Source: Thermoproteota archaeon
GTDB lineage: Archaea; Korarchaeota; Korarchaeia; Korarchaeales; Korarchaeaceae
Reading direction: 5' to 3'
Length of the DNA stretch: 39,445 nucleotides
Assembly (NCBI GenBank): GCA_026986575.1
Contig: JALSOH010000007.1
Location: 1 to 39,445 of the forward strand
The stretch's first letter is position 1. The number at the start of each line of letters is the position of its first letter. A program made the translations under genes and the position numbers. Under the pieces are notes generated by a model. That model saw nothing but the letters and a program-made list of their open reading frames with translations, had not been told where the DNA came from and did no database searches. Below, piece by piece: positions 24 to 39,445 of this stretch.

Positions 24-3000
24 GATTCTAGCCTACCTAGAAGGGATTGAAACTCCTCGGAGGATGGTGGGATCATCCTCTCCAACTCGGATTCTAGCCT
101 ACCTAGAAGGGATTGAAACCATGCATGTTTCAGCACTAAAGCACCACTTAAACAAGATTCTAGCCTACCTAGAAGGGATTGAAACAGCAAGATGCAGAGT
201 GATCTCAAGGAGGAGCTTTCCGAGATTCTAGCCTACCTAGAAGGGATTGAAACAGTCAGGGTGTCATGATGGCGTTTCAGGGCATAATGGATTCTAGCCT
301 ACCTAGAAGGGATTGAAACAATTGGTACGATGTGATGTATGGAAGGCTCTAATATGATTCTAGCCTACCTAGAAGGGATTGAAACCTGGATGACAGGTAA
401 CCCTTTCAGAATTCATGAGCGGATTCTAGCCTACCTAGAAGGGATTGAAACTATCCCGATCCCTTTATTCTAGATGACATTATCTTCGATTCTAGCCTAC
501 CTAGAAGGGATTGAAACTAGTCTCTATCATCTTGTTCCAGTTCATCTGTAATGGATTCTAGCCTACCTAGAAGGGATTGAAACTGTAGGGGTGTTCTTGA
601 TACACCAATTGAATTGCAGATTCTAGCCTACCTAGAAGGGATTGAAACTCTGAAATTCCATATTCCACCTATCAGCCTTCTTCCGATTCTAGCCTACCTA
701 GAAGGGATTGAAACTCGCTCTATCGGTATCATCACGAATTACAATCCATGGATTCTAGCCTACCTAGAAGGGATTGAAACCGAGTTGATCGATTGCTGCG
801 TCATAAGTATATCCAGGATTCTAGCCTACCTAGAAGGGATTGAAACCTAGTTTGAGCGATTCTGAGTTCCTCTGAAACCCAAGATTCTAGCCTACCTAGA
901 AGGGATTGAAACACGCGGAGGTCTACTACAGGCTGGTAGCCGAGGGAGGATTCTAGCCTACCTAGAAGGGATTGAAACTGAAGGCCCCATCATAGCGCCA
1001 GATAATGGAACAGAGATTCTAGCCTACCTAGAAGGGATTGAAACAGTTACCCGGAGGGACTACGGTAACCGATACGTTCTGATTCTAGCCTACCTAGAAG
1101 GGATTGAAACAACGATGGGGCACCGGCCGACGCTTCGTCAGTCATAGATTCTAGCCTACCTAGAAGGGATTGAAACAGTAAACGCGAGTATAAGTTTCTA
1201 GCAATGGAATACGGATTCTAGCCTACCTAGAAGGGATTGAAACAGGAGGCGCTGATCAAAGATGAGGCGCCTGATCAGGATTCTAGCCTACCTAGAAGGG
1301 ATTGAAACAGGGGGGTTCCGTGATGCCTGAGGTCGAGGAGTTGGGATTCTAGCCTACCTAGAAGGGATTGAAACCGCGTACATGCAGGTGCCCACGTTTC
1401 AGGTGATCTTGATTCTAGCCTACCTAGAAGGGATTGAAACTCCCACACGACTTCGAGTCCCCCGAACTCGTGAGCAGATTCTAGCCTACCTAGAAGGGAT
1501 TGAAACCACGGATCGGAGCCTAGGTACTTAGTTGTCTTGAGGTGATTCTAGCCTACCTAGAAGGGATTGAAACCAGTGAGAGTTGCTCGCAACCACCTCT
1601 TCGTTATCAGATTCTAGCCTACCTAGAAGGGATTGAAACAACTCAATAAATGCGAGCCATTCGCGGATGAATTTGAGATTCTAGCCTACCTAGAAGGGAT
1701 TGAAACTGCCTCGGCCTCCTCCATTCTTCCATCGACGATCCTGATTCTAGCCTACCTAGAAGGGATTGAAACTGGTACCTGTCCTCGCAGTACGCCTTCT
1801 CACTGAAGGATTCTAGCCTACCTAGAAGGGATTGAAACCGGGGAGGAGAAGATGAGCCTCCAGACAGTTGATCTAGATTCTAGCCTACCTAGAAGGGATT
1901 GAAACTGTGAAGACAGGTAAGTGCCCCAGAGGACGCAGTACGATTCTAGCCTACCTAGAAGGGATTGAAACACTGAGCTGAGAACATTGGTGGATGAGAT
2001 ACGCTGGGATTCTAGCCTACCTAGAAGGGATTGAAACATAACGAAGAGAGGCTCATCTCGTTAGATCTTGGTTGATTCTAGCCTACCTAGAAGGGATTGA
2101 AACAAACCATAAATACATCAACGAAAAACGCCGTGATAGGATTCTAGCCTACCTAGAAGGGATTGAAACTTCTACTCTCCCTATGAGGCGCTCCTCATAA
2201 CCAGGATTCTAGCCTACCTAGAAGGGATTGAAACTTCAACTACTTCAACTTCACACAACCCATCAACCTGGATTCTAGCCTACCTAGAAGGGATTGAAAC
2301 CTGATTAAAGAGTTGCTGAAGTTTCTTGCTATAACGGATTCTAGCCTACCTAGAAGGGATTGAAACTTCGCAGAGCGACTCAATAGACCTCTCTTTACTA
2401 TAGGATTCTAGCCTACCTAGAAGGGATTGAAACTAATAGATAATTTCCCAGATGAATTAGATACCGTATGATTCTAGCCTACCTAGAAGGGATTGAAACA
2501 AAGAGAAAGGCTATACCTTTGATGCCGCGCTAGAAGATTCTAGCCTACCTAGAAGGGATTGAAACTCATTACTGGCCATATGGGAGAGGTTCGGTATATC
2601 GGATTCTAGCCTACCTAGAAGGGATTGAAACATGCAGTCTCTACCAGTAGGTCTCTTACATATTCATGATTCTAGCCTACCTAGAAGGGATTGAAACCAT
2701 CCTTTACACATATCTTGAGGTCACCTTCACTGGGATTCTAGCCTACCTAGAAGGGATTGAAACTACTTCTCGAGTATACCGAGGTATCCTTCTATCAGGG
2801 ATTCTAGCCTACCTAGAAGGGATTGAAACTAGCGCGTATCACAATAGTTCTATCACTATAGTGTGGATTCTAGCCTACCTAGAAGGGATTGAAACTCCAG
2901 TATAGGCCAGTTCTCCCCATTGAATATATCAGATTCTAGCCTACCTAGAAGGGATTGAAACCGATGATCAGTAGCCTCCTGACAGCAGCCTTGACATGAT

Positions 3001-4020
3001 TCTAGCCTACCTAGAAGGGATTGAAACTTCTTCGCGACGATAGTGCTAGCCGTGGCCGTGGCGAGATTCTAGCCTACCTAGAAGGGATTGAAACCACTCC
3101 GTGGTGCAGCCCACCGACTTCAGGACAATAGGATTCTAGCCTACCTAGAAGGGATTGAAACACGCCCTTGATCCTCCCGCTGTCATCCCTCACAGCCGAT
3201 TCTAGCCTACCTAGAAGGGATTGAAACTGTGGAGGTGGTAGCATGGTGAGAAACGTTCCCAAAGATTCTAGCCTACCTAGAAGGGATTGAAACTATCCCC
3301 TAGCCCTCAGTAGCTGGGCTAGGATCTCTGATTCTAGCCTACCTAGAAGGGATTGAAACGCGATATAGTCGAGGCCTACATCCGTGGCTATATCGGATTC
3401 TAGCCTACCTAGAAGGGATTGAAACCCCCAAGGCCTTCCTGGTGATCCGAACCCTCCAGCAGGATTCTAGCCTACCTAGAAGGGATTGAAATTTTCCTGA
3501 TCTTCCCGTCCTCATACCATTCCTTCGGGATTCTAGCCTACCTAGAAGGGATTGAAATCGTTCGTGCCGGTCGGAAAGAGGTTGGTGCCGTCTTGATTCT
3601 AGCCTACCTAGAAGGGATTGAAATTCCCATAGACCTCAAAGTACTTCTCCGCCAGATCCTGATTCTAGCCTACCTAGAAGGGATTGAAATCGCTCATCGG
3701 TCCACTGAGTATCCACCAGCTCCACCGATTCTAGCCTACCTAGAAGGGATTGAAATGTAGTTTTCTCTCATCCATTCGGTGAAGCTGTCAAGGATTCTAG
3801 CCTACCTAGAAGGGATTGAAATTCCGCCGATCCTCTGCTCACCAGCCTATGCAGTACAGATTCTAGCCTACCTAGAAGGGATTGAAACAGAAGGCGGAAA
3901 CTGAGGGCCTCCCCACTCCCGAAAGATTCTAGCCTACCTAGAAGGGATTGAAACTACGCATGTGTATATCTCGGCGGGTAAGAGTATGGAGATTCTAGCC
4001 TACCTAAAAGGGATTGAAAC
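24..4020 (+). CRISPR. Large CRISPR array, 61 repeats and 60 spacers
   Basis: A 30-base repeat recurs 61 times. Start-to-start spacing is 66 bases in most units (range 65-68), so spacers are 35-38 bases and mostly 36. The repeat begins GATTCTAG and ends ATTGAAAC. Its inner part is a perfect hairpin, TTCTAG and CTAGAA around a 5-base loop, followed by GGG and then the 8-base ending expected to become the crRNA 5' handle. Repeats ending in GAAAC normally have their leader on the 5' side, so the array is read on the plus strand and the leader lies left of base 1. The final repeat (3991-4020) carries a G-to-A change that breaks one stem pair, as expected at the leader-distal end. Six consecutive repeats starting 3463-3793 end in GAAAT. 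The array may continue beyond the left edge. No cas gene adjoins it here. Confidence 0.99.
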
Positions 4021-33135: not shown

Positions 33136-33390
33136 CTGGCACTGGGCCGTGCCCCACCCAAGACGATCAGGCCTCGGAGGTCTCATTTCTGCTTTCAGGT
33201 GCCCCTCCCTCTCAAGTCATATCGCTCTTAGAACGTTGAAACCCTCTCCTGTCACCTAGAATCGGGAAAACCCCATGAGGGCCTATGCCTCCGGGGCGTG
33301 CAACTTCGTCCCGTCAAAAGCGTGCAATCTCTTGGAATTTCCGGGAAACAGGATTAAATATTGGTCACTCTGGCCCAAAACGGTGGTGTA
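33136..33390. other. Intergenic region and promoter ahead of the CARF operon
   Basis: No gene is seen in these 255 bases. TTAAATA at 33354-33360 is a TATA candidate whose predicted transcript start (about 33384) lies just before the TTG at 33391. Confidence 0.4.
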
Positions 33391-33990
33391 TTGTCCATAG
33401 GACTCGTGACCACGGTGGTAGGTTTACTGGTGGATTCGGTAGAGGTCGTGAGGCTCGGGAAGGAGCTGAAGGGCTACCTGTCGAGGAGGAAGAGTTCCGA
33501 TGAGAGGATAGACATACCAAGCGACCAGGAGGACAGGATGAAATCCCTCATCGGTGGTGTGATCGGATCAAAGCTGGTGGACGCTTTCATATCCTACGTG
33601 GAGAGCGGCGACCCAGGTCCGATGATGGAGGTCATAGATGGGGTGGAGAGGAGAAAGGAAGTGAGCGCATCCATCGACGTGATAGGCAGGAACCCTGAAG
33701 TCATGTACAGGAGGCAGTTCGGCAGGGATCCCGACTACATCTATAAGTACGTTCCAGATCAGGGTGGTTTGAGCGTAAAGGAATTCCCTCTGGTAGCGTT
33801 CAGCTCGGCGAAGTTTCTGGAATTGATAAACAACCTGCATCCTTCCGCCAAGAAGAGGCTCATCCTCTCGGCACCCGTGATCTTGGGATTTCAGATAGGT
33901 CAGCTCGTGGGAACCACGGCAAAGTTCTATCCCCTGCACCTAGTGAGGGAATCCGGTTACGCCGAGGTTAGCCCCGTCGTCAGGTACTGA
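33391..33990 (+). CDS. Membrane protein with SAVED/CARF-like C-terminal half
   Basis: This is a 199-residue protein from the TTG at 33391 (a TTG ten codons earlier overlaps the promoter). A transmembrane helix lies at the very N-terminus (SIGLVTTVVGLLVDSV), followed by a basic stretch (LGKELKGYLSRRK). The C-terminal 90 residues alternate strands and helices, and LILSAPVILGFQIGQLVG followed by FYPLHLVRESGYAEVSPVV strongly recalls the last strand-helix-strand of SAVED domains, which sense cyclic nucleotides in CBASS and CRISPR systems. The middle (about 65-125) contains DVIGRNPEVMYRRQFGRDP and is unassigned. It is first in an operon with a Csx1-like nuclease whose start is 9 bases after its stop. 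Function as a membrane sensor or effector is inference. Confidence 0.55.
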   Translation: MSIGLVTTVVGLLVDSVEVVRLGKELKGYLSRRKSSDERIDIPSDQEDRMKSLIGGVIGSKLVDAFISYVESGDPGPMMEVIDGVERRKEVSASIDVIGRNPEVMYRRQFGRDPDYIYKYVPDQGGLSVKEFPLVAFSSAKFLELINNLHPSAKKRLILSAPVILGFQIGQLVGTTAKFYPLHLVRESGYAEVSPVVRY

Positions 33991-33999
33991 GGCGATGCC

Positions 34000-34437
34000 A
34001 TGTCCCACGTCCTAGTCCACGTGGCTGGGGACACCCTGCTGAGGGGATCGAGGAAACTCTACGAGGTTAGGGCGCCTGGACGAAAATCCATTCGGTTGAG
34101 GGCTTCATCCACCGCACTGCCCGTCTCCATGGAGGCGCTGGGCAGGGGGAAGGCCGACCCGGGCAAGCTCAAGATGATCGTTCCCCTCCCCCACTCCCTC
34201 GTAACCCACGCCGAGAAGTTTTGGAGGCTCCCAAGGATGGGGGAAGGAGTGGAGGAGTGGATCCTAGACGCGACCCGGAGACTAGTGGTCGAATTCCCGA
34301 GGCTACTCGTCAAGGACGTGAATGAGGAGTTACCGGGGGACTTCGGAGGCCTGCTTGACGGCTCTCCTCTATCTTGGCTAGGGTGGTCCAAGTCAGGGGC
34401 ACCTTCACCCTGCCTCTGGAGGACGGGACTGGCGTGA
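34000..34437 (+). CDS. CARF-like N-terminal part of a Csx1/MJ1666-type protein
   Basis: This 145-codon frame starts at an ATG preceded by GGCGAT. It resembles the N-terminal Rossmann (CARF) part of Csx1-type proteins: HVLVHVAGDTLLRGSRKLYEV, ASSTALPVSM and MIVPLPHSLVTHAEKF. CARF domains bind cyclic oligoadenylate made by type III CRISPR complexes. After about residue 122 (FGGLLDG) the sequence no longer looks like protein, and the sense continues in the next frame from about 34374. Either a frameshift splits one gene of about 650 codons, or two proteins form a split receptor. It follows the SAVED-like gene by 9 bases. Confidence 0.6.
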   Translation: MSHVLVHVAGDTLLRGSRKLYEVRAPGRKSIRLRASSTALPVSMEALGRGKADPGKLKMIVPLPHSLVTHAEKFWRLPRMGEGVEEWILDATRRLVVEFPRLLVKDVNEELPGDFGGLLDGSPLSWLGWSKSGAPSPCLWRTGLA

Positions 34438-35963
34438 GGCTCAAATTCGAGAGAGGCGGGCCCTCCCACATATTCGCCGAGGTTTACCGATCTCTTAGGG
34501 AACTGGGAGATGTGGAGAGGGTGGTCTTCGATCTGAGTCAGGGGTGGAATCACCTGACCGTAATGGCCTACATAGGAGCACTGGCGTACGCTGAGGTGAA
34601 CTGGGTGAATCTGATCCCCCTGACCTCAATGCCCGTGTTGGTCCCATCGGGTAGACCCCCCACGAGGACACGCCCAAGCCCTGATCCATACCAGGAGGGG
34701 TTAGCAGGGGCAGCAGGCCGAGCCGTCGAGCTCCCAGTGGATTTCATGGATGTCGAGGAGGCTCAGGTGATTCACGGACTTGTTGTAACTATATCGAAGT
34801 TGCTGGCCCACAGCAGACTTAGCCCCGGCATGATAGCGGATATATGGGAGAATGTAGTGAGGAGGGAGTTCGATCGATACGGAAACCTAGAGAAGGGTAA
34901 GGAGCTCCTGAAATCCCTGATCAGGCTCAGGAAGGTCTCTTGCGCGCTCGATACCACCATGCTAACCTACCTGCATCACGCTTTGAGGAGCTTCAGCGAA
35001 TCCCTCCATTCTATTCGCGAGATGCTCAATTACCTCAAGGAGAGGATGGATAGAGGGGACTACGTGGAGCGCCTGAAGCCGAATCCGGATGCCTTCGCTG
35101 AGGGCTTTGATGAGATCGTGATAGAATACGAGCTTGAGCCTCCCCTGTCCTATCCGCTGGCGGATTCAGTGAGCTCCTTCGCCCTCAAGATAGGGATCGA
35201 TACGTTGAATCATCACTTGAGGAGGGATCACGCGTCCCTGAGGTTCGCTCAGGAGGTCAGGTCCCTCTACCGCTCGTTGGGCATGCACCCGAACGAGGTC
35301 TTGATAGCTAGAGAGCTAGCTATGATCGATAGGAGCGGCAACCTCAGAAGCGTAAACTGCATGGTGAGGGAGGCGCCGGGAGGCACAGCCTTGGGCTACA
35401 TGAGGTCGTACATCGAGGAAATGGCCTGCGAGATGGTTAAAAAGAGGATCAGAGGATCGGTCGCCTCCGTCCGTGATGTTTACCCGTTCGCGATTCTGGG
35501 CAGGAGGTGCCCGGATGTCGTGAGGGACGCCTATAGAGAGACCAGTAAGTTCGATAGGAGCTCAACCTTGGTGGATCTCCATGAGGAGAGCCTGAAATGG
35601 GAAATCTTCAGGACTAAAGCGGTAGATTTGATGGAAAACTCTTCGTGCAAGGACGATTGGTGGGTCAGGAACTTCCTCTCGGCGGATAAACTGATGAGGG
35701 GAAGAGACGCGGTCAGCCCGGAGGAGGTCTCTTCACTCCTCAGGAACCTTGCCGTCCATGTTGGCCTCCAGCACTTCTCCGTGAGGAATCTAGTGCCCGT
35801 CCTCGATCGTGGCGGCGTGATCGAGGATGTGGAGATCCACTATTACCATGAGCTCTTCGAGGGGCTGGAAGATCTGGCCAGTGGGAAGTTGAGGGGAAGG
35901 TTGGATGGGATGCCCGAGGACCTCATCAGGGAGATCGGGTGTCTATGCGATGTAGGGATCTGA
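34374..35963 (+). CDS. Csx1-like protein, DxTHG-variant plus HEPN ribonuclease part
   Basis: This is a 529-codon frame from TTG at 34374. It begins with beta strands (VVQVRGTFTLPLEDGTG) and then has VVFDLSQGWNHLTVMAYIGA with D53-L-S-Q-G57, at the place where MJ1666/Csx1 proteins have the DxTHG signature. A long helical region follows. Near the end R457-N-L-A-V-H462 is the R-x4-H active site of HEPN ribonucleases, in the context SLLRNLAVHVGLQHFSV that is usual for Csx1. Such enzymes cut RNA when cyclic oligoadenylate binds their CARF domain, which here lies in the preceding overlapping frame (64 bases shared). No classical slippery heptamer is seen in the overlap. It is larger than most Csx1 proteins (400-520). 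Confidence 0.7.
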   Translation: MARVVQVRGTFTLPLEDGTGVRLKFERGGPSHIFAEVYRSLRELGDVERVVFDLSQGWNHLTVMAYIGALAYAEVNWVNLIPLTSMPVLVPSGRPPTRTRPSPDPYQEGLAGAAGRAVELPVDFMDVEEAQVIHGLVVTISKLLAHSRLSPGMIADIWENVVRREFDRYGNLEKGKELLKSLIRLRKVSCALDTTMLTYLHHALRSFSESLHSIREMLNYLKERMDRGDYVERLKPNPDAFAEGFDEIVIEYELEPPLSYPLADSVSSFALKIGIDTLNHHLRRDHASLRFAQEVRSLYRSLGMHPNEVLIARELAMIDRSGNLRSVNCMVREAPGGTALGYMRSYIEEMACEMVKKRIRGSVASVRDVYPFAILGRRCPDVVRDAYRETSKFDRSSTLVDLHEESLKWEIFRTKAVDLMENSSCKDDWWVRNFLSADKLMRGRDAVSPEEVSSLLRNLAVHVGLQHFSVRNLVPVLDRGGVIEDVEIHYYHELFEGLEDLASGKLRGRLDGMPEDLIREIGCLCDVGI

Positions 35964-36306: not shown

Positions 36307-37068
36307 TCACTCCACAGCCTCCCTCATGGCCTCTCCTATAGCCCTACCCAGGTCTGTGGGTATGATCCTGCCTCCGGATACCTGTATAAGGCCTGAGAAC
36401 CTGAGGGCAGCTATGTAGTCTTCCCCAAGATCCTCAAGTTCCGACCTGCTGCCTCCCTCGCTGAGGATCCCCGCCACCCTCCTGACTATCGAATAAGGCA
36501 GTGGAAGCATGGGTATCCTCATCACGCTGTAGGTCAAGGGGGGATACATGAGGATCTGCAGCTCCCTATTCTCCCTGTAGTAACTGAGAGGATCGTCCGA
36601 TGAGGCGAGTTCCTCTATCTTCGGTCTCAGCCTCTCTAGCTCGATGTTAACCACCCTCACATCTGGCACGACCACATGGTAGATACCGGATACCGCAAGC
36701 ACCTGCCCCAGAAGGGCCACCTCCACCGAGACGCTCTTCCTCCCCCCTGAAATGAGTAGGTAGACTGGCTTCTCCAGTCCAGCTATCTCTGAAGCCGCTA
36801 TTCTCATGAAATCGAAGGCCACGTTCTCATTAACGATGTCCTCGTAGTCCAGAGTAAGGCTAACCACCTTGGCCTTGGGATACCTGTCCTTCACGGCTGC
36901 CTCAACTAGCCTGGCGCCTTCCTGAACGCGTTTGTCCTTTGTAAGGATCAGTTCCACGGTTTTTGGCTTCATGTTGTACTGCCAGTCCAGGTACTGGATC
37001 AGCTCTGTAACGATGGGTGGGCTCAGGCCGAGAGGGGCTAGCAGGGAGTAATCACTGAAGTAACGCAT
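36307..37068 (-). CDS. CARF-domain protein with C-terminal winged helix (CRISPR-associated regulator or ring nuclease)
   Basis: This is a 253-residue protein. Residues 5-150 form a CARF Rossmann domain: the N-terminal loop LLAPLGLSPPIVTELIQYL, then VELILTKDKRVQEGA, and the second ligand-binding block LLISGGRKSVSVEVALLG with G108-G-R-K111, as in NE0113-type ring nucleases. Residues 185-250 are a winged helix (VRRVAGILSEGGSRSELEDL, then GRIIPTDLGRAIGEAM). CARF-wHTH proteins such as Csa3 regulate CRISPR or cas genes in response to cyclic oligoadenylate, and some CARF proteins also degrade the messenger. It is divergent from the APE2256-family gene. TATA (TCTTTATC on the minus strand, 37091-37098) is 26 bases before the ATG. 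Confidence 0.75.
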   Translation of the reverse strand: MRYFSDYSLLAPLGLSPPIVTELIQYLDWQYNMKPKTVELILTKDKRVQEGARLVEAAVKDRYPKAKVVSLTLDYEDIVNENVAFDFMRIAASEIAGLEKPVYLLISGGRKSVSVEVALLGQVLAVSGIYHVVVPDVRVVNIELERLRPKIEELASSDDPLSYYRENRELQILMYPPLTYSVMRIPMLPLPYSIVRRVAGILSEGGSRSELEDLGEDYIAALRFSGLIQVSGGRIIPTDLGRAIGEAMREAVE

Positions 37069-37375: not shown

Positions 37376-38131
37376 ATGGCGGAGACTCACGTGATCACAT
37401 GCGGCATCAGTCTCCTCATGAACACTATCAGGTCGACTGAGGAGGACATTCTCTCCTCGATACCAGAAGAAAAGCTCCGCGAACTCTCCAACCCCAGAAG
37501 TCTATCAGAAGCACTAAAGTCCCTCACTGGAGACGAGAGGAGGGCTCTCGAGGAGGCGATGCTCTCCAACCTGAGAAGGGATCCGAGGAGAGCCAGCGCT
37601 GAGATGAATGCCTTCCTCGGGTATATAAACGAGTACTCCACGGAGGTTAGGGATCTACACCTCTTAGTCTCCGACACCGACGCCGGGAAGCTAGTAGCGA
37701 AGATTCTCGACGAATACCTTACAGAGAGTGGGTACAACGTCTCCAAGCATGTGGTCGCTGGCTTCGGCTCCGAGGACTTCGACGCTGCTCTCAAGGAGCT
37801 GAAGGAGGTGGTGGGATCCATAGTGGGGAGATCGGGCGATGTGGTCCTCAACCTCACCGGTGGATTCAAGGCGGAGATAGCCGCATTATCGGTTCTTGCC
37901 GCTGAAAGCGGTCTCAGAGCGTACTACATACATGAGGCCGCCAAGAAGATCGTGATCTTGCCGACGGCCAGCCAGCTGAAGGTGAAGGTTACCAAGTGGG
38001 AGAAGGCCCTAGCCATCCTCACGGCCATCCTGAGCTTCCCGATCGACTCGTTACTCGGCTTCCCCCTCTTCGTAGTAGCTGAAATTGCAATATTCGTGCC
38101 GACCCTCTGGATAATACTGAAGAAGGCCTGA
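37376..38131 (+). CDS. APE2256-family CARF protein with two-helix membrane tail
   Basis: This is a 251-residue protein of the Cas_APE2256 family, whose studied members include CARF ring nucleases (Crn1 type) that cut cyclic tetra-adenylate. Visible are the opening HVITCGISLLMNT, LHLLVSDTDAGKLVAKIL, the ligand block VVLNLTGGFKAEIAALSVLA (N159 to K165) and YYIHEAAKKIVILP. After a basic linker (KVKVTKWEK) the last 45 residues form two hydrophobic helices (ALAILTAILSFPIDSLLGF, then FVVAEIAIFVPTLWIIL) and a lysine end. Plain ring nucleases are soluble, so this one is probably attached to the membrane with its CARF domain in the cytoplasm. The ATG has a TATA-like box 27 bases upstream. A decayed relative with the same tail lies at 38664-39060. 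Confidence 0.8.
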   Translation: MAETHVITCGISLLMNTIRSTEEDILSSIPEEKLRELSNPRSLSEALKSLTGDERRALEEAMLSNLRRDPRRASAEMNAFLGYINEYSTEVRDLHLLVSDTDAGKLVAKILDEYLTESGYNVSKHVVAGFGSEDFDAALKELKEVVGSIVGRSGDVVLNLTGGFKAEIAALSVLAAESGLRAYYIHEAAKKIVILPTASQLKVKVTKWEKALAILTAILSFPIDSLLGFPLFVVAEIAIFVPTLWIILKKA

Positions 38132-38259: not shown

Positions 38260-38405
38260 CTTTCAACTCCCTTTTCGGGATTCTTGTGCCTTTAAATAAC
38301 CATTTCTGATAAGGTCTGTTAGAACTTTCAACTCCCTTTTCGGGATTCAGGACGTCCACGTCAAACCTAGCGAACATGTTACTTTCAACTCCCTTTTCGG
38401 GATTC
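38260..38405 (-). CRISPR. Three-repeat CRISPR mini-array
   Basis: A 24-base repeat occurs at 38260-38283, 38325-38348 and 38382-38405 without mismatch. On the minus strand it begins GAATCCCG and ends GTTGAAAG. TCCC and GGGA pair around GAAAA, and the hairpin ends exactly 8 bases before the repeat end. Spacers are 41 and 33 bases. It belongs to a different repeat family from the large array. The orientation is inferred from the TTGAAAG end and the AT-rich flank on the right. Confidence 0.9.
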
Positions 38406-38545: not shown

Positions 38546-38667
38546 CTAGCAAGCGCGAGTCTGCTCTATCCCGTTCAGCGCTGGATGAGGATGCCTCGCC
38601 AGAAGAGGTTCTTGATGAAGACACCGCCCTCGACATATCTACAGCTGTGATGCAGAGCGCTCGCTAG
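38546..38667. repeat. Inverted repeat flanking 100 bases
   Basis: CTAGCAAGCGC (38546-38556) and GCGCTCGCTAG (38657-38667) are inverted repeats with one mismatch. The enclosed 100 bases hold no reading frame of note. It could be a folded RNA or a small non-autonomous element; neither is established. Confidence 0.3.
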
Positions 38668-39060
38668 CTATCATGTCCCGAAAAAGGCCTCGAATACCCT
38701 CCAACAGATCCAATGGGAGTGATCAGGCTTTCAACAGGACGATCAGCAACGATGTCTGGAGGAGGGCATCCTATTGCAGGAGAAGGGAAGCTCAAGAGGG
38801 CGTCGAAAGGGAAGGACATTAATGCACCAACTACCGCCTTCTCGTGCCTGAAGAGTCGGATCTTAGGTCCCATCTCCGGCAGGAGCTTCACCACCTCTTG
38901 AGTCCCTCGTGTATGTAGCAGGCATTCAAGTCGCTTCCAACAGCGATGGCACCCATGGCTGCCTCCTCCGTTTGAGGCCGTCCGTCAGGTCCAGTTTGAA
39001 CTCTCCCTTCTCAGGCTTACTATCCTCCTCAGGAGTTTCTTTATCCTGTTTCACCGCTCA
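38664..39060 (-). pseudogene. Decayed second copy of the membrane APE2256-family gene
   Basis: Minus-strand fragments in three frames line up in order with the intact protein at 37376-38131. FKLDLTDGLK matches VLNLTGGFK, NACYIHEGLKR matches RAYYIHEAAKK, and VVKLLPEMGPKIRLFRHEKA then LMSFPFDALLSFP matches IVILPTASQLKVKVTKWEKA then ILSFPIDSLLGFP. At least two frameshifts separate the pieces. The N-terminal half is not seen. The membrane tail is retained, so this copy was also a membrane CARF protein. It lies on the other side of the mini-array from its intact relative and points toward it. Confidence 0.7.
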
Positions 39061-39159
39061 TTTGTGGTTCTGGGAATCGAATCCAAGGTCCTTCCTAATC
39101 TCCACTCCATCTTCGCCCATCAGCCCTGTCCATGTCGACTACGGACCCTCGGGAAAGAA

Positions 39160-39166
39160 TTTATTA
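39160..39166 (+). promoter_or_regulatory. TATA box of the right-edge coiled-coil gene
   Basis: TTTATTA is centred 26 bases before the ATG at 39189, with no Shine-Dalgarno, as for a leaderless message. Confidence 0.55.
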
Positions 39167-39188
39167 CCCTCATTCCTATCTTTACTCG

Positions 39189-39445
39189 ATGTCTCTAATA
39201 GAGGAACTCTCGAAAGAGCTTGAGGCACATCCCGAACTTGCCAAGAGTATAGCTAAGAAGCTAATCGAGTATATAGAGCCAGAGCTAAGTCTGGCCTATC
39301 AGATTTCCAAAATGGTCGATCAGATAACCAAATTCGTCGAAGAGCAGACCAAGATCTGGCAGGAGATCAAGGCGATCAAGGAGGAGATCCAGAAGATATG
39401 GGAGGAGATAAAGGAGCTGAAGGAGGAGCAGACGAGGCTGAAGGA
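39189..39445 (+). CDS. Coiled-coil protein (DUF3782-like), cut by the window edge
   Basis: The first 85 codons of a gene that continues past the right edge. It begins MSLIEELSKELEAHPELAK and then forms a long charged helix with repeated glutamate, lysine and isoleucine (EEQTKIWQEIKAIKEEIQKI, then EELKE-type heptads). Proteins of this build in archaea often carry a PD-(D/E)XK nuclease-like domain after the coiled coil (DUF3782 type), but that part is not visible. The start is fixed by the TATA box 26 bases upstream. Confidence 0.7.
   Translation, partial: MSLIEELSKELEAHPELAKSIAKKLIEYIEPELSLAYQISKMVDQITKFVEEQTKIWQEIKAIKEEIQKIWEEIKELKEEQTRLK

Follow-up and report, generated by a model that had tools for sequence, protein, structure and literature searches.

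The CARF7 (Cas_APE2256) family includes both the ring nucleases of the Sso1393 type and the Cami1 effectors, which block translation. The window analysed here, a 39,445-nt stretch of DNA that constitutes an entire contig (G000:C7) of a 1.9 Mb archaeal genome, encodes a CARF7 protein of 251 amino acids (positions 37376..38131, + strand, ATG start) with a C-terminal two-helix hydrophobic tail. The locus raises the question of what such a tail does on a CARF domain of this family: does it turn the protein into a membrane effector of CRISPR immunity, does it merely tether a ring nuclease, or is it no membrane element, or no functional element, at all?

The CARF7 domain has the fold and residues of ring nucleases

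The ORF matches the Pfam family PF09651 (Cas_APE2256) with 102 bits against a cut-off of 24.8 (E 3.4e-29), the PADLOC model CARF7--CARF (E 2.9e-41), the NCBIfam model TIGR02619 and, weakly, the NCBIfam 'CRISPR system ring nuclease' model NF040951. An AlphaFold2 model computed from an input alignment of three sequences displays a CARF Rossmann fold like that of Sso1393 and Sis0811, with pLDDT values of about 74-97 for the CARF domain. These same two proteins are the top Foldseek matches (E about 1e-12 to 1e-10; 3.6e-12 for 7pqa), followed by the CARF-RelE effector Cami1 (5e-8) and by weak matches to Sso2081, Csa3 and Cam1 (E 2.5e-3 for Cam1).

The ligand block was located by alignment, with the roles of motifs I and II taken from PMC10018336. 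Motif I (37403..37411, +) reads G10-I11-S12, in which the catalytic Ser is kept and the Thr of GTS is replaced; S74-A-E76-M-N78 (37595..37609, +) contains the conserved Glu; motif II (37856..37876, +) reads T161-G-G-F-K165-A-E167 and keeps the ligand-binding Lys; and Y184-I-H-E187 (37925..37936, +) is a further CARF7 motif. In the alignment G10, S12, E76, K165, E167, Y184, H186 and E187 are kept in 5/5 members of the tailed clade described below. The family assignment, the likeness to ring nucleases (as regards fold) and the intact CARF ligand block, as claimed in the original prediction, are confirmed. In the tailed clade motif I is GIS, GVS or GAS and never GTS (5/5), i.e. Thr is exchanged for Ile, Val or Ala. 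We rejected the idea that the missing Thr means that catalysis is lost, since about 26 of the 85 other CARF7 proteins are likewise without it and the T10A substitution in Sso2081 had no noticeable effect (PMC10018336).

Judging by these residues, it is possible that the protein has ring-nuclease activity, which bears on the main alternative to the membrane effector that we propose below. According to this alternative the tail merely tethers a ring nuclease to the membrane; by clearing cOA the protein would switch off Csx1 or the neighbouring TM-SAVED protein, and would thus be a regulator and not a killer. It is favoured by the closest solved relatives, Sis0811 and Sso1393, being stand-alone ring nucleases, and by the retention of S12, E76 and K165 in all five clade members: S11 and K106, the equivalents of the motif Ser and Lys in Sso2081, matter for cleavage (PMC10018336), as does the Lys equivalent in SyCsm6 and Sso1393 (PMC9676260). 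However, the conserved Ser and Lys cannot separate effectors from ring nucleases, because the CARF7 effectors Cami1 and SyCsm6 keep the same kind of residues, and a pure hydrolase is thus not singled out.

A hydrophobic helix pair follows the CARF domain

The CARF domain comprises residues 1-197, and the 54 residues that remain after it are hydrophobic. A short Lys-rich linker after approximately residue 197 leads into a 38-residue hydrophobic stretch (211-248), in which D224 and E236 are the only acids and which is followed by KKA. The stretch is flanked by K202, K204, K207 and K210 on one side and by K249 and K250 on the other; the tails of the homologues are also flanked by positive residues (Lys/Arg) on both ends, and their turn has one conserved Asp. 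AlphaFold2 models the tail as a helix-loop-helix both in the window protein (helices 207-219 and 230-250; pLDDT about 40-61 by blocks) and in the homologue L009 (207-220 and 232-250; pLDDT about 55-72), the confidence in the tail being low to moderate in both models. On the basis of AlphaFold2 and hydropathy, helix 1 is placed at residues 207-220 (37994..38035, +) and helix 2 at residues 230-250 (38063..38125, +), the latter including, at residues 231-248, the 18-residue segment of highest hydrophobicity in the whole protein. The turn between them, F221-PxDSLLGF-F229 (38036..38062, +), has conserved P222 and D224 in the homologue alignment, the Asp being found in 4/5 members and in a decayed gene copy nearby. 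The C-terminal hydrophobic helix pair that had been claimed is thus borne out by the hydropathy of 211-248 and by the two structural models. Note that E236, a candidate for a conserved pore-lining Glu of helix 2, was rejected, as it is not conserved among the homologues.

In four homologues the hydrophobic moment of helix 2 is near zero (0.05-0.09) and its GES hydropathy is 1.9-2.2 over 18 residues, a profile as expected of a buried transmembrane helix and not of an amphipathic one. Taken together, hydropathy, charge pattern and homologues point to a membrane assignment of the tail, and the positive residues at both ends would, by the positive-inside rule, place the two ends of the hairpin on the cytoplasmic side, like the CARF domain. 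Alternatively, the helix pair could pack between subunits of a dimer or tetramer or lie on the membrane surface, in which case the protein would be a CARF sensor or ring nuclease that is soluble or only peripherally bound. The two acids inside the stretch, the shortness of helix 1, the weak tail of the G011 homologue and the AlphaFold2 confidence values would all be compatible with such an arrangement, but the strong hydropathy and near-zero moment of helix 2 in four homologues, the Lys/Arg residues at both ends and about 88 relatives without a similar tail argue against it, and we consider it unlikely.

The tail is maintained in one small clade

A homologue search covering the window's phylum and other archaea recovered the same tail in four homologues of the window's phylum, namely in G007 (89% identity), G001 (L009; 59%), G016 (L010; about 50%) and G011 (about 48%). 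The window protein and these four form one clade (support 1.0, branch 0.72). P222, P230 and W245 are invariant in the tails of the five members, and position 224 is Asp in 4/5. PxDSLLG is conserved, and the tails of the five genomes, with identities as low as 48%, terminate at almost identical positions. Between the window and G007, which are the closest pair, dN/dS is 0.13 for the tail (2 nonsynonymous and 5 synonymous changes) versus 0.27 for the CARF part; the tail is under purifying selection in this pair. The G011 member has clearly the weakest tail of the clade (GES-18 0.99); its helix 2 contains E and K.

These data bear on the suggestion that the tail is a functionless extension arisen by chance, or a decaying one, through read-through or frame drift. 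While the decayed gene copy and a frameshifted Csx1-like gene nearby would suit such an origin, it is refuted by the homologues: the same tail recurs in five genomes with PxDSLLG and W245 conserved and with a low dN/dS, and we attach hardly any probability to this explanation. The tail is a maintained feature and not a chance extension.

For a family-wide survey, the PF09651 profile was searched in 394 relatives and in 398 genomes of a larger archaeal phylum, and the strong matches were read out. This set comprises 94 distinct CARF7-like proteins, nearly all archaeal and including one bacterial plasmid protein; tail hydropathy was compared among the 93 whose tail has 18 residues or more. Four of the five clade members take the top four places in this comparison (GES-18 1.88-2.20), and all other CARF7 tails have a best value of 1.08 and a median of -0.55. 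A comparable tail is absent from the roughly 88 other CARF7 proteins surveyed, in which its position is occupied by soluble sequence that is often winged-helix-like. In the solved soluble relatives Sso1393 and Sis0811, too, a winged helix is found at this position (PMC10018336), so the reading of the tail is not refuted by them; the winged helix of Sis0811 is autoinhibitory according to work cited in PMC10018336. A search of a further archaeal phylum with the clade alignment returned only two already known tail-less relatives. Judged by sequence, the hydrophobic helix pair replaces the C-terminal winged-helix region of the relatives. The original prediction had described a lasting family feature that is not due to chance. 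The second part of this holds; the first has to be narrowed, because about 88 other CARF7 proteins are without the tail, which persists in a single clade of five proteins and does not characterise Cas_APE2256 at large.

Searched against PADLOC, the tail alone gave no match. No relatives of the CARF7 protein were found in the viral contigs scanned, and a plasmid search returned only distant CARF7 matches, in five bacterial plasmids; the CARF7 protein of the Nostoc plasmid L081 has no comparable tail.

A decayed second copy retains part of the tail

A decayed, frameshifted and N-terminally truncated copy of the gene lies at 38726..39114 on the - strand. Using tblastn only 29 residues of it were detected, and a frameshift-tolerant alignment clearly matched residues 117-230 over 39114-38784 (-), with several frame changes and a stop, a vestige of helix 2 extending to 38726. 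The score of 154 compares with 31.9 +/- 4.7 (maximum 53) for 300 shuffles. The copy is without motif I. Its tail retains ...EKA..VVGALMSFPFDALLSFP, matching EKALAILTAILSFPIDSLLGFP of the intact tail. The whole tail scores 60 versus a shuffle maximum of 44 (0/1000), and the frameshifted helix 2 alone is not significant, its score being reached by 121 of 1000 shuffles; retention can therefore be asserted for helix 1 and the P-x-D turn only. The earlier claim that the copy keeps the same tail is accordingly correct as regards the reality of the copy, helix 1 and the turn, though not helix 2, and the copy begins further upstream than the 38664-39060 first assigned to it.

The CARF7 gene is linked to CRISPR loci

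A three-repeat CRISPR array (38260..38405, +) with the 24-nt repeat CTTTCAACTCCCTTTTCGGGATTC lies about 130 bp downstream of the CARF7 gene in the window. The G011 homologue is located about 250 bp from a 42-repeat array, the repeat of which differs from that of the window at 1 of 24 positions. In G011 a single stretch carries the CARF7 gene, Cas3/Cas5/Cas7, a second array, Cas1, Cas4, Cas6 and a Cmr locus comprising Cmr3, Cmr4 and a Cas10 with canonical GGDD, about 17 kb from the CARF7 gene. The G016 homologue adjoins a 9-repeat array, and degenerate repeats are found downstream of the homologue in G007. The flanks available for G001, which cover about 6 kb to one side of the gene and 10 kb to its other side, contain no cas gene or array; the G001 genome encodes a GGDD Cas10. 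The CARF7 gene is CRISPR-linked and, by its context in G011, a type III accessory. We dropped co-occurrence with Cas10 as an argument, since 4/5 carriers versus 10/24 non-carriers are too few.

In the window genome the Cmr genes are on other contigs, with one locus on C10 and a second apparently split over C10 and C3. The two Cas10 proteins of this genome, encoded on G000:C10 (L047:14326-17667) and G000:C3 (L048:3-1928), have AGDE and GGDQ in place of GGDD, which is kept in most other Cas10 proteins checked in the phylum; because of these substitutions, messenger may be reduced in the window genome.

Upstream of the CARF7 gene the window encodes a CARF5/Csx14-like CARF protein (36307..37068, -; PF09623 E 2.8e-16, PADLOC CARF5 1.3e-65) with a C-terminus that is wHTH-like by sequence, a Csx1/Csm6-like CARF-HEPN effector gene with an HEPN-type RNLAVH (34000..35963, +) and a SAVED4-like protein whose N-terminus contains one hydrophobic helix (33361..33990, +; PADLOC SAVED4 7e-8, homologue 9.5e-8). 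All three genes are syntenic in G007. Compared with G007, where the ORF is intact (655 aa), the Csx1-like gene is frameshifted; the indels, near 34320 and 34367, reflect either real decay or assembly error. The locus appears to be eroding in the window genome, given this frameshifted gene and the decayed CARF7 copy nearby. The SAVED4-like protein is a second candidate membrane-bound messenger sensor of the locus.

The Csx1-like effector would be available for regulation by an anchored ring nuclease, but it is frameshifted in the window genome, there is no obvious reason to anchor a hydrolase of a diffusible messenger, and the tail stands in for a winged-helix domain that is autoinhibitory in Sis0811, as cited in PMC10018336. 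We consider the anchored ring nuclease a less probable explanation, with roughly one chance in four of being correct.

A putative membrane effector of type III CRISPR immunity

Because the usual C-terminal DNA-binding-like domain is replaced by a conserved, putative membrane helix pair, the protein probably acts at the cell membrane upon virus detection. We propose, with about an even chance of being right, that it is a membrane-bound cOA sensor and effector of type III CRISPR immunity. The CARF7 domain (residues 1-197) would be cytoplasmic, dimerise and bind cOA, the ligand most likely being cA4 by comparison with Sso1393/Sis0811 and Cami1. The hairpin (approximately residues 207-250) would reside in the membrane with N-in/C-in topology and the P-x-D turn on the far side. 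Upon synthesis of cOA by Cas10, binding to the CARF dimer would cause a conformational change that is passed on to the hairpin, which would oligomerise or open and leak ions, resulting in growth arrest, as in Cam1, Csx23 and Cap1; opening or disruption of the membrane upon ligand binding was shown for Cap1 (PMC12642688) and is supported for Cam1 (PMC10808066) and Csx23 (PMC11014256). Given that it retains the Ser and Lys of ring nucleases, the CARF domain probably also cleaves its ligand slowly, which would end the response and limit the protein's own action, as proposed for SyCsm6.

Several observations call for caution with the effector reading: helix 1 spans just 13-14 residues before a Pro-Asp turn, the weakest tail sits in the clearest CRISPR locus (G011), E236 is not conserved, the window Cas10 proteins carry AGDE and GGDQ, and the G001 flanks are without a cas gene or array. 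Furthermore, the characterised membrane CARF effectors that we found are all TM-first, and here the putative TM part is C-terminal.

The protein shares with Sso1393/Sis0811 (PDB 3qyf, 7pq2) the CARF7 domain, fold, catalytic Ser and ligand Lys, but these have a C-terminal winged helix and GTS where the window protein has a hydrophobic helix pair and GIS. In the CARF7-RelE effector fusions Cami1 and SyCsm6 (PDB 8phb; PMC11229360, PMC9676260) the C-terminal part of a CARF7 protein is likewise swapped, in their case for a RelE ribonuclease and here for putative membrane helices; Pfam gives no RelE match for the window protein, its 54 post-CARF residues being hydrophobic. SyCsm6 cleaves cA4 and was proposed to be a self-inactivating effector (PMC9676260). 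Cam1 is also a small CARF protein with a membrane helix, and a conserved Asp within or close to the helix may have a comparable role; however, Cam1 has a single N-terminal TM helix followed by CARF (PMC10808066), i.e. the reverse order, and matches the fold only weakly. Csx23 and Cap1 resemble the window protein in combining two TM helices per chain with a cytoplasmic cA4 sensor, and their membrane part changes upon cA4 binding (PMC11014256, PMC12642688), but their TM pair is N-terminal and their sensors, which bind cA4 as tetramers, are not canonical CARF domains, unlike the CARF7 domain here.

A class of CARF-TM proteins has been predicted (PMC9704534), and the PADLOC models CARF3--CARF_TM and CARF5--CARF_TM likewise represent predicted CARF-TM fusions, although of CARF families other than CARF7. 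Among the best 25 of 34 PADLOC families for the window protein there is no CARF7_TM model, the CARF7 models there being CARF, RelE, RelE_like and DUF2103; in Cam1, Csx23, Cap1 and Chp the TM part is N-terminal to the sensor (PMC10808066, PMC11014256, PMC12642688, PMC12715507). Given this order and the PADLOC families listed, a CARF7 protein with a C-terminal TM pair may be a new variant of the CARF-TM class, which the supplement of the 2020 CARF classification may nevertheless mention.

A stronger version of the effector proposal, which we advance only tentatively, is that the effector limits itself: a single CARF7 domain would both gate a C-terminal two-helix pore and hydrolyse its own cA4 activator, providing a built-in depolarisation timer with the domain order reversed and of an origin independent of Cam1, Csx23 and Cap1. 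If this clade does couple the CARF7 sensor to membrane helices, a ring-nuclease-type CARF has given rise to membrane effectors once more, and whether a membrane effector can carry its own off-switch becomes testable. The protein would also be a candidate membrane-acting CRISPR effector for archaea with ether lipids, the characterised ones that we found being bacterial.

Other elements

A long CRISPR array, separate from the short one, occupies positions 24-3954 (-) of the window; it has 54 repeats, which match Rfam CRISPR-DR2. G011 and the window genome have in common a pair of large CRISPR-adjacent proteins (508-574 aa; L049:5892-9222 and L047:5356-9029), which are without family matches except that one of them has a Csa3-like winged helix. 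Finally, a coiled-coil protein with 21-nt internal repeats (39132-39445, +) runs off the contig end.
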